Positions 27,621 to 31,750 of a DNA stretch of 64,000 nt are shown piece by piece. The stretch covers positions 124,001 to 188,000 of the forward strand of contig JAMLGR010000005.1 of NCBI GenBank assembly GCA_023957775.1. Direction: 5' to 3'. The notes beneath the pieces were generated by a model. It was not told the DNA's origin and made no database searches. It saw only the letters and a program-made list of their open reading frames with translations. The first letter of the stretch is position 1. Each line of letters starts with the position of its first letter. The stretch is from Fimbriimonadaceae bacterium. Its GTDB lineage: Bacteria; Armatimonadota; Fimbriimonadia; Fimbriimonadales; Fimbriimonadaceae. The position numbers and the translations under genes are program-made.

Positions 27621-28934
27621 CTAGCCGCCGACCAGATCCTTGACCTTCTCGCGGAACGGCTTGAAGATCGCGGGCGAGTAGCCGACGTGGATGAACGCGA
27701 CTTTGCCTTCGCGGTCGAGCACCACCCAGTGGGGGATGCCGCTCACGCCGTAGGCTTCGCCGTTGTCCTTGCCTCCGAACACCATCGGCCAGGGCTCATC
27801 CTTCTCCTTGATGAAGTTGGCCATCTCGGCGAACTCCTCTTCGGGGCTGAGGTTCTTCTTCGCACCCACGTAGCCGTAGTACTGGGTCACGGCCACCATT
27901 TCGAGTCCTTTGTCGTGGAAGTCAGCGTACAGCTGCTTCAGGTCCGGAACGGACCTCTGGCAGAACCCTCACCAGTGGGCGGTGAAGTCGATGATGACGA
28001 CCTTGCCCTTCCACTTGTCGAGGCCGGGATAGTCGCCGTGCTTGCGGTCGTAGTTGAGTTCGACGGCCGCCGAGCCGACGAGCGTCATCTGCTTCAGCGT
28101 GGAGCTGGCGCGTCGGGCGTAGGCGCTCGCCGGGTCCGTCTTCGCGACGTAATCCTCGAGCAGTTTGACCGCGTCGTCCTTCCGTCCCGCCTGCAGCAGG
28201 AGTTCGGACTTCTTGTCCACGACCGAGTAGCCGAGGCTGTCGTTGACGGACTTGCCGGTCGCGACGAGCGTGGTTCGGATCTGGTCGTCGGTCATGGCCG
28301 ACCCGTCGCGGTTCTTCAGGTTGCGCGCCTTGGTGGAGGCGAACATCCGGTCGGCATACGCTTCGGGGGTTTCGAACTGGACCTGGGCCAGGGCCGCGTC
28401 GATGGCTTTCATCGCCGCGTCGGGGCCGAGGTCTTCGGCGATCGTGTCCGAGAACACGCCGACGACCGTGCGCAGGAACGCTTGGGTGGCGGCGAGGTTG
28501 GGCGCGGCGACCCCGGGAAGGGTCTGGGCGATCTTCTCGCCTTCGCCCAGCGTGTTGCAGGAGCTGAGCATCAGCATCTGCGCGGCGTATCGCTGGTCGG
28601 GGTCGGGTTTCGTCGTCAGGAATTTCGCGGCCAGGTCGCACGTCTCTTGGTGTTTTCCAGCCAAAGAGAACAGTTGCGCCCACGCGTAAGCCTGGGCCGC
28701 CTCCACCTTCGTCGGGTCGACACCCTGGATCGCCTCCGCTGCCTTGGCCGCGACATCCGCGTTCAAGGCGTTGACGTCGATGGTTCCACCCGAATTGCGC
28801 ATCTCGGTGAGGCGCTGGGTTCGGAACTGGTTGATCGACTGAAGGAGCTCGGTTGGGTTCTTCGACTGTGCGAAGGAGGTGGCGACGCTCAAAAGGGCGG
28901 CGGCAAGCGCTGCCAATCGGAGTATCGGTTTCAT
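27621..28934 (-). CDS. Thioredoxin/TlpA-like protein with in-frame TGA, probable selenoprotein (UxxC)
   Basis: Read through one TGA, this is a 437-residue exported protein. The ATG at 28934 follows GAGGTG by nine bases and opens a signal peptide (KPILRLAALAAALLSVATSF). Residues about 25-290 are helical, probably TPR-like. A TlpA-type thioredoxin domain follows: KGKVVIIDFTAHW, then TGA (27969-27971, codon 322), then GFCQRSVPDLKQLY, and later cis-Pro in VSGIPHWVVLD. The TGA sits exactly at the first cysteine of the usual WCxxC, giving UxxC. All 115 codons after it are intact and end at a TAG. A SECIS-like hairpin follows the TGA. Likely role: envelope thiol-disulfide or peroxide chemistry. The alternatives are a fresh TGC-to-TGA nonsense mutation or a base-call error. 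Confidence 0.75.
27940..27956 (-). promoter_or_regulatory. SECIS-like hairpin after the in-frame TGA
   Basis: In the message, 12 bases after the UGA, AGGUCCG pairs perfectly with CGGACCU around UUC. If the top G-C pair opens, the loop is GUUCC with a G first, 18 bases from the UGA. Known bacterial SECIS elements need a short upper stem, a loop about 16-37 bases from the UGA and a G among the first two loop bases, and this fits. Its function is inferred. Confidence 0.55.
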
Positions 28935-29029: not shown

Positions 29030-29119
<90 letters not shown>

Positions 29120-29120
29120 T

Positions 29121-29424
29121 CCGGTTCCTTTTCGCCTTCATTGAGTGTCAATTGGGTGTCAAACGCCCTTCCTTTGGCAAACAGTTTGCCGAGAAGATCA
29201 GCTCCCTCACGCCTCCGGGATTGAGCTACGGAAGTGTAAAGAAGGCTCATGTCCGGCTTCTTGTGGCCCAGCACGGCAGCGATCACCAGCAGGTCGCATC
29301 CTGGGGCCGCAAGTAGTCCCGCGGCTAAGTGCCTCAGGTCGTAGAAGTGCCAATCGAGGAGCCCGAGGGCGTCGCGTTCGGCAGGACAGAACTCTGTGAT
29401 CTTGTCGGGCACCCACGGTGACCC
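29121..29424 (-). pseudogene. Tyrosine recombinase (integrase) C-terminal remnant
   Basis: The reading frame beside the tRNA contains FYDLRHLAAGLLAAPGCDLL, VIAAVLGHKKPDMSLLYTSV and then a basic tail (RRREGADLLGKLFAKG): the catalytic half of a phage-type integrase with Arg-His (LRH), Leu-Gly-His and nucleophile Tyr. The first His of HxLRH is Tyr here and everything N-terminal to about WHFYDLRH is lost or unrecognisable. The frame runs antisense through the tRNA without a proper stop. Boundaries are approximate. It is a relic of an element that entered at tRNA-Ser. Confidence 0.75.
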
Positions 29425-29927
29425 AGTGTCGTCTTGAATCGTGGCTGTAGCCGCAACCGTCCCTTTGGTACGCATTGGTGTTGTGGCGGTGGCTGGGCGA
29501 GAGCAAGGGATATGTCTCAGTACGGGGCGTTCCACCTTCTCTTCAGGTCGCGTCAGGTGCCACGCTGCGGCGAAGGCACCCCCGGGGGCAGGGGTGGCAC
29601 GGGTTTGTTGGCCTTTTTAGCGTCCTACGCGTCCTGCCACTGCTTGCGCAGGAACTTGACGGCTTTGGGGATCTCGACCATCTTGTCCCCGATGACGCCG
29701 CACTCGTGGCTCCTGAAGTCCTGATAGCCGATCATCCTGAGGCCCTTGAAGCCGTTGCCAGACAGCGGCAGGCCCCCTACGGAGCCTGGTCGGAGACTGC
29801 AACGCTCCCATGTGGTTGCATTTCCAAGGCATGGCTTTCTGCCTGCCTTGTCATCGCGAGTTGGGATGGAGAGTCAAGACGCTCAACTAGCGGATGTGGA
29901 ACCGAGTCCGGGTGGCGGCAGACGCTG
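29425..29927. other. Non-coding scar region after the integrase remnant
   Basis: No intact gene seen. On the minus strand a 36-codon fragment (29625-29735) ends MIGYQDF...ECGVIGDKMVEIPKAVKFLR plus a lysine-rich end and a TAG; it looks like the tail of a lost gene but I cannot name it. A variant of the dispersed hairpin repeat (GGGGTGGCACGGG) lies at 29594-29606. The rest looks like decayed island DNA. Confidence 0.4.
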
Positions 29928-29933
29928 TAGAAT
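29928..29933 (+). promoter_or_regulatory. -10 box of the toroid/ankyrin gene
   Basis: TAGAAT eight bases before the ATG at 29942; no Shine-Dalgarno sequence. Leaderless signature. Confidence 0.45.
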
Positions 29934-29941
29934 CCGTTAGC

Positions 29942-31750
29942 ATGCGTCTCCTCTCGTGGTTGCTCTTTCTGGCCGGCATTGTGGGCTTCACAGCGCCATT
30001 TGACCGCCCTGCCTCCGCCAACGTCGGAGTGGAGCGGGCGCTCCCGTTGTTGCAGGCGAGCGCTCGAACCTGGACCGAGCGATCGTCTTGCACGTCGTGC
30101 CACCACCAGTCGTTGGGTTCCCTGGCGATCGCGGTCGCCCGTGAGCGCGGATTCAAGGTCGATAACGGGGAAGCGATGCACCAGATCCAGGCGGTGATCG
30201 AGAATCGTTCCGATGCGATCCTCCGCATGTACGTGGGCGGAGGCTCGATCAATGGCCAACTCACCTTCTCCTACGCTTTGCTTGGGCTCGGAGCCGAGGC
30301 AACGCCCAAGGAGGAGATGACTGACGCGATGGTGCACTTCCTGAGAATCCTGCAGGCTTCCGACGGCGGGTGGGCCTCCTACAGCCACAGGCAGCCCCTC
30401 GAGGACGCTCGCGAATCAGCCACCGCCCTGGCGTTGCGGGCTCTCCAACTGTACGGCGAAGCCTCTGACGCCGACCGCCTGAAGAGGGCCGCCAAGTGGC
30501 TGGAGGCCTGTAAGCCCGAACATCAGGAGGGGCGCGCCATGCGGCTCCTCGGTCTGGTTTGGGCCAAGGCGGGACCTCGGCCGATGCGTTCCGCGCTCGA
30601 TGCCGTTGCGAGAGCCCAAGGCAAGGACGGCGGGTGGTCCCAACTCCCGGGCCTGCCGAGCGACTCCTACGCGACAGGCCAGGCCGTGGTCGCCCTCCGC
30701 ATGGCCGGCGTGGGGCGCACCGATCGCCGGATTCGACGAGCGATCACCTTCCTGCAAAACACGCAACAAGCAGACGGTTCATGGCGAGTGGCCACCAGAC
30801 GCAAGACCGAAGGGCTGCCTTACTTCGAAACCGGTTTCCCCCATGGCGAGGACCAGTTCATCTCCTTTGCGGGAAGCGCCTGGGCTACCATGGCCCTTGC
30901 GCTTGACGGCGCCGATGTGATGCCTCCCGCCCTCGTGCGATCATCGGTGCCGGAAGGCGCTGTGCGCGAACATCGATTTGCTGACAGCCCGCGTCTGAAT
31001 GCCCTGTTCGTGGCCATCGCACACGGCACGACCGCGGATGTCGAAGCGGCCCTCAACGCCGGCGCGGACCCCAAGGCGAAAAATCTCGCCGGCAATAGGC
31101 CGCTGGAGTGGGCTGTGTTCGACACCGAGAAAAGTGCGCTGCTCCTGAGTCGGGGTGCAGACCCGCAGGAGGCCCTTCACGCTGCGGCGCACTACGGAAC
31201 ACTCGAAGTCCTGCGACGGCTCGTCGATGCGGGAGCCGATGTGCGTGAGCCCGACTCCGACGGACTATCCGTGCTGGTCCACGCGGCGCTATCGCTCGAT
31301 ATCAAGAAGCTCGAGTTCCTCCTCGGGCGGGGCGCAAAAGCGGATGTCGATGGGGATGTGCCGCCTCTTGCGGCTGCAACTTGGGCCGGCAACATCGAAG
31401 GGGCTAAGCGTCTCTTGGCCGCTGGCGCCGATCCGAGCTTTCCCCTTACCGACGCCGTGGTCGATCTGAACGAGCCCATCGTGCGATTGCTGCTGTCCCA
31501 CAAGGCGAATCCCAATAGCGTCGACGAGTCGGGCAGGACCCCGCTCCACTATGCGGCAATGATGTTCGCTGGTCACGATCGCTACGGCGCGCAGTTGCTT
31601 CGGGCCGGGGCCGATCCTAGCGTTCGGGACCCGGATGGCCTCACTGCTTTGGAGCTTGCGCGCAAGCACAAGAACAAGCCCATGATCGAGTTGCTCGAGA
31701 AGAATCGGCGCGCTCTGCGATCTGGGTCTCAAGCGCGAGGCGTTGGATGA
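29942..31750 (+). CDS. Exported CxxCH / terpene-cyclase-type toroid / ankyrin-repeat fusion
   Basis: 602 residues. A signal peptide (MRLLSWLLFLAGIVGFTAPF) leads to Cys50-Thr-Ser-Cys53-His54-His55, a c-type heme motif or metal site. Residues about 60-330 form an alpha/alpha toroid with squalene-cyclase/prenyltransferase repeats (ILQASDGGWASYS, GKDGGWSQLPGLPSDSYATG, QNTQQADGSWRVATR). The DxDD acid motif of real cyclases is absent, so cyclase activity is unlikely. Residues about 355-590 are six or so ankyrin repeats (NAGADPKAKNLAGNRPLEWA, DAGADVREPDSDGLSVLVHA, SGRTPLHYAAMM). It may be a periplasmic protein-binding scaffold; the function is unknown. It is the first gene after the tRNA scar and probably accessory. 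Confidence 0.85.
   Translation: MRLLSWLLFLAGIVGFTAPFDRPASANVGVERALPLLQASARTWTERSSCTSCHHQSLGSLAIAVARERGFKVDNGEAMHQIQAVIENRSDAILRMYVGGGSINGQLTFSYALLGLGAEATPKEEMTDAMVHFLRILQASDGGWASYSHRQPLEDARESATALALRALQLYGEASDADRLKRAAKWLEACKPEHQEGRAMRLLGLVWAKAGPRPMRSALDAVARAQGKDGGWSQLPGLPSDSYATGQAVVALRMAGVGRTDRRIRRAITFLQNTQQADGSWRVATRRKTEGLPYFETGFPHGEDQFISFAGSAWATMALALDGADVMPPALVRSSVPEGAVREHRFADSPRLNALFVAIAHGTTADVEAALNAGADPKAKNLAGNRPLEWAVFDTEKSALLLSRGADPQEALHAAAHYGTLEVLRRLVDAGADVREPDSDGLSVLVHAALSLDIKKLEFLLGRGAKADVDGDVPPLAAATWAGNIEGAKRLLAAGADPSFPLTDAVVDLNEPIVRLLLSHKANPNSVDESGRTPLHYAAMMFAGHDRYGAQLLRAGADPSVRDPDGLTALELARKHKNKPMIELLEKNRRALRSGSQARGVG

Follow-up and report, generated by a model that had tools for sequence, protein, structure and literature searches.

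The gene at positions 27621 to 28934 on the minus strand of the window, as we call the whole stretch of 64,000 nucleotides from a Fimbriimonadaceae bacterium analyzed here, almost certainly encodes an exported selenoprotein, in which a hairpin read by SelB would place selenocysteine at UGA codon 322 of a TlpA/ResA-type enzyme with the redox motif U-G-F-C. ORF and domain analysis gave a reading frame of 437 codons that starts with ATG at 28934 and contains a single internal stop, the TGA codon 322 (27969 to 27971, minus strand). This codon takes the first position of the U-x-x-C motif (AHW-U-GFC, i.e., W321-U322-G-F-C325), where TlpA/ResA-type domains have their first active-site cysteine. Behind it the frame stays open for 115 codons until a normal TAG stop codon is reached (27621 to 27623, minus strand). 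The preliminary description of this DNA had given the same coordinates without stating the strand, and the single TGA at codon 322, the 115 intact codons behind it, the cis-Pro and the normal stop were all found again on recomputation. Its reading of the gene as a selenoprotein with a UxxC thioredoxin domain is supported by the selenocysteine machinery, the homologs and the hairpin, and decoding of UGA-322 as selenocysteine is thereby strongly supported.

The protein probably begins with a signal peptide (MKPILRLAALAAALLSVATSFA, 28869 to 28934, minus strand) with an AxA-type cleavage site and is thus probably exported, as judged from the sequence and the low-confidence N-terminus of the structural model. 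In the AlphaFold2 model (mean pLDDT 90.3, pTM 0.81) the N-terminal ~260 residues are all helical, forming a domain of residues about 23 to 285 (28080 to 28868, minus strand). Homologs show TPR-like Pfam matches in this part, a weak TPR match being found in 7 of 17. Residues 286 to 437 (27624 to 28079, minus strand) form the thioredoxin-fold domain, which was matched by the Pfam family Redoxin (PF08534) with 60.2 bits at a cut-off of 26.6 and also by the AhpC-TSA and thioredoxin families. A structure search gave the ResA-type 4nmu and the DsbE 3gl3 as the closest solved folds, with a target-normalized TM of about 0.8–0.9 over the domain, and the sequence agrees with this. The domain combines the features of TlpA/ResA-like proteins: the thioredoxin fold, a CxxC-type site (here UGFC) after a strand, and the cis-Pro codon P401 (27732 to 27734, minus strand), with I400-P401 being invariant among the aligned homologs. 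No NCBIfam model was matched over its curated cut-off, the best reaching 53.6 bits vs. the 170 needed for ResA; therefore the protein cannot be filed as ResA, TlpA or DsbE proper.

The genome to which the window belongs (G000, 97% complete) encodes all four components of selenocysteine synthesis and insertion that the preliminary description had proposed to look for. The tRNA-Sec with the anticodon UCA (C7:121808) scored 76.5 bits, over the Rfam curated cut-off. SelB (C4:52873, 365.5 bits) includes the SelB winged-helix domain, SelA (C1:187295) reached 504.8 bits, and SelD (C4:95494, 349.9 bits) has an in-frame TGA of its own in the context DCAG-U. Within the phylum of the Fimbriimonadaceae, Armatimonadota, SelA is found over its curated cut-off in 138 of the 291 genomes, and SelD genes with an in-frame TGA are common. 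When genomes were sorted by the TlpA-type gene, a SelA match was present in 9 of the 10 with a TGA form vs. 140 of the remaining 281 (p = 0.01); the one TGA-form genome without a match, G064, is 61% complete.

Alignment of homologs at codon 322, another check proposed beforehand, revealed both TGA and cysteine codons. The closest homologs among the 291 genomes, in G066 (58% identity) and G102 (55%), each contain one TGA, and it lies at the same codon. TGA also stands there in the genes of G071, which belongs to the family of G066, and of G036 from a further family, which makes four other genomes from three families with TGA at this codon. The 26 further homologs compared have cysteine there, nearly always as CGPC. 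Neither a genome devoid of selenocysteine machinery nor TGC in all homologs, the two outcomes named in advance as speaking against a selenoprotein, was encountered. In a tree of 31 sequences the selenocysteine label requires three changes, and three are forced by well-supported branches: one for the clade of the window's gene with G102 and G066, one for G071 and one for G036. The full machinery together with several independent relatives carrying TGA supports the view that this is a real selenoprotein gene.

Sequence identity also continues past the TGA, and at a higher level than before it: 46% before and 82% after in the comparison with G102, 56% and 66% with G066. A 3' part that had lost its function would not be expected to look like this. 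The large step in the comparison with G102 could come from constraint or from an old domain exchange. Synonymous divergence between the window's gene (L017) and the G102 gene (L019) is similar to that with G066 despite the 46%/82% split. A sequencing or assembly error at a true TGC codon, or a nonsense mutation that left a pseudogene ending at residue 321, would fit the cysteine codon of most homologs and a source genome that is a draft in 27 contigs. However, such an error or mutation is very improbable, because the same TGA and hairpin recur in the four other genomes from three families and the protein is under stronger constraint downstream of the TGA than upstream.

The genomic surroundings were compared with the flanks in G066 and G102, and no neighbor within about 2 kb is kept alongside the gene; therefore the function has no support from context. 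In the window, a tRNA-Ser(CGA) lies at 29030 to 29119 (plus strand) beside a weak C-terminal remnant of a tyrosine integrase (about 29221 to 29361, minus strand), which suggests an old insertion at the tRNA.

Folding of the RNA behind the TGA confirmed the perfect seven-pair hairpin that had been noticed 12 bases past the codon, with its loop about 18 bases away. This SECIS-like element, AGGUCCG-UUC-CGGACCU, lies 12 nt after the TGA at 27940 to 27956 (minus strand), where 27956–27950 pair with 27946–27940 and the loop begins 18–19 nt after the TGA. For the comparison of energies a folding window of 33 nt beginning six bases after the TGA was used. Over these 33 nt the element has a minimum free energy of −14.4 kcal/mol, which is more than chance would give: among 500 shuffles of synonymous codons just 0.4% fold this well (z = −3.0). 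A published model of bacterial SECIS elements allows an upper stem of 4–16 bp, an apical loop of 3–9 nt, a distance of 16–37 nt from the UGA and an MFE of at most −7.5 kcal/mol; the first or second loop base should be G, and the next base is often G or U (PMC13188914). The hairpin lies within the limits on stem (7 bp), loop (3 nt, or 5 nt with the top pair open), spacing (18–19 nt) and MFE. In the minimum-energy structure the loop is UUC and the G sits in the closing pair; an early loop G is present, as GUUCC, only when the top G-C pair is opened. Other TGA forms have the loops AGUU, GUA and GGC. A search of the whole window with Rfam at gathering thresholds returned only a tRNA, which leaves the hairpin without a counterpart among the curated families.

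The hairpin is specific to the TGA forms of the protein family. Six TGA forms, namely the five of this family and the TlpA-type gene of G064 (the gene L081 described below was left out), fold with −10.4 to −14.4 kcal/mol, whereas 25 cysteine forms range from 0 to −9.3 kcal/mol; the two ranges do not overlap (rank test, p = 1e-4). The signal against synonymous shuffles is weak for G066, where 11% of the shuffles fold as low. The 16 codons following the TGA are in addition conserved at the nucleotide level. At unchanged residues 86–94% of the codons are identical in this stretch, vs. 48–55% elsewhere, with 12 of 14, 15 of 16 and 13 of 14 identical codons in the pairwise comparisons of G000, G066 and G102 (Fisher p = 0.02, 0.001 and 0.001); as these sequences are related, the synonymous conservation partly reflects kinship and the p-values serve as guides only. 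In G066 one pair of the stem is changed from G-C to U-A, with both sides altered by way of two amino-acid exchanges.

It is conceivable that UGA-322 is recoded mainly with cysteine, e.g., via thiophosphate at low selenium, or that termination dominates and selenocysteine is inserted as a minor event. Decoding via a SECIS element inside the gene is known to be inefficient, and the cysteine homologs are functional relatives, which would suit either case. Nevertheless we consider both highly unlikely, as the TGA is conserved together with the hairpin, which argues for selection on selenocysteine itself.

The window's gene is not the only one of its kind in G000, which carries at least three further TGA candidates, namely SelD and two thioredoxin-fold genes, L081 and L093. 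L081 (C3:244707-245060, minus strand) encodes a shorter, ResA-like protein with predicted export and an in-frame TGA at AHWUGPC; its hairpin is weak (−4.8 kcal/mol). Genes similar to L081 that contain a TGA are present in G122 and G156. L093 (C12:26097-26336, minus strand) belongs to the SelL-related redox proteins (NF040769, 145 bits at a cut-off of 120); it has the TGA at HFG-U-IFC and a stable hairpin that carries GGUCU. Scanning the corresponding domain of the molybdopterin oxidoreductase-like genes of G000, candidates for formate dehydrogenase, revealed no in-frame TGA.

A scan of the phylum for the pattern CAY-TGG-TGA...TGY yielded about 95 matches, mostly due to chance; among those examined, only nine matches outside G000 are open through a thioredoxin domain. 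HWUGPC genes were found in G061, G064, G208, G122 and G156. Those of G061, G064 and G208 (L113, L114 and L125) form a further TlpA-type group within other families of Armatimonadota; they have the TGA at HWUGPCN, and their tight hairpin has the loop GGC. One database record, JADZEW010000008.1 (L049), labeled 'Methanoregulaceae archaeon SJ84', matches the genome G129, which shares its genus with a Fimbriimonadaceae bin, and the label looks wrong.

That four or more genes of G000 apparently have a decoded UGA might also be read as a genome-wide reassignment to tryptophan or another amino acid, but this is the least credible explanation of all: ordinary ORFs in the window still end in TGA (e.g., 29894 to 31750, plus strand), as had been noted before, which excludes a global reassignment, the G071 gene itself terminates in TGA and so uses the codon in both meanings, G000 has the complete SelA/SelB/SelD/tRNA-Sec set, and the checked TGA sites in thioredoxin-fold genes align with redox cysteine positions. 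The product of the ORF at 29894 to 31750 joins ankyrin repeats to squalene-cyclase-like (prenyltransferase toroid) repeats.

For the selenoprotein we propose the following mechanism. SelB loaded with Sec-tRNA(Sec) would bind the hairpin just downstream of UGA-322, selenocysteine would be inserted there and translation would run on to the TAG. After export, Sec322 would act outside the cytoplasm as the nucleophile attacking a disulfide or a peroxide, and Cys325 would resolve the mixed selenyl-sulfide. From its fold, the protein is most likely an extracytoplasmic thiol-disulfide (or peroxide) reductase.

Selenoproteins of this general kind are known, since a 2026 review lists both a Redoxin family (PF08534, UxxC) and thiol-disulfide isomerase-like proteins (cd02966, UxxC) (PMC13188914). 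With its PF08534 match and UxxC motif the window's protein falls into the redoxin UxxC class of the review. Compared by listed description only, it shares with these entries PF08534, UxxC, the thioredoxin fold and the selenocysteine in place of the attacking cysteine, but adds the helical N-terminal domain (~260 residues) and has UGFC. The ResA-like WAxxUGC motif protein (NF041054) is likewise a selenoprotein with a TlpA/ResA-like thioredoxin fold; however, its selenocysteine is located in an adjacent UGC motif and not in UxxC (UGFC). We rejected membership in NF041054, for which the protein scored 23.5 bits at a cut-off of 300 and has UGFC instead of UGC, as well as in NF040769, the thioredoxin-fold type represented in the same genome by the TGA gene L093, with only 12.6 bits. 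TlpA, ResA and DsbE oxidoreductases have the fold and the cis-Pro in common with the protein, but carry cysteine where it has selenocysteine, and their solved chains are without a long helical N-terminal domain.

The preliminary description had placed the gene in a lineage with no described selenoprotein. In agreement with this, the text of the review does not mention Armatimonadota (PMC13188914), and our search of the listings of open-access papers found none concerning selenoproteins of this phylum. The genomes themselves tell otherwise, as SelA and TGA-bearing SelD genes are widespread there. The helical N-terminal domain, the UGFC motif and the at least three changes between selenocysteine and cysteine in the tree appear to be undescribed. 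Whether all of this amounts to an undescribed selenoprotein family of Armatimonadota, exported, with a helical-repeat N-terminal part and a TlpA-type AHWUGFC domain, at least three Sec/Cys swaps and a place in a wider set of thioredoxin-fold selenoproteins, we regard as an evenly balanced question.

The finding leaves the general picture of selenocysteine decoding unchanged. It has a practical side, as annotation pipelines that read TGA solely as a stop truncate the gene at residue 321 and lose the catalytic domain, and the same holds for its relatives. For the biology of the phylum it brings in a redox selenoprotein that probably acts outside the cytoplasm and a lineage whose use of selenocysteine appears to be undescribed, in which cysteine and selenocysteine homologs occur side by side and thus offer a tractable set for asking why lineages swap cysteine for selenocysteine.
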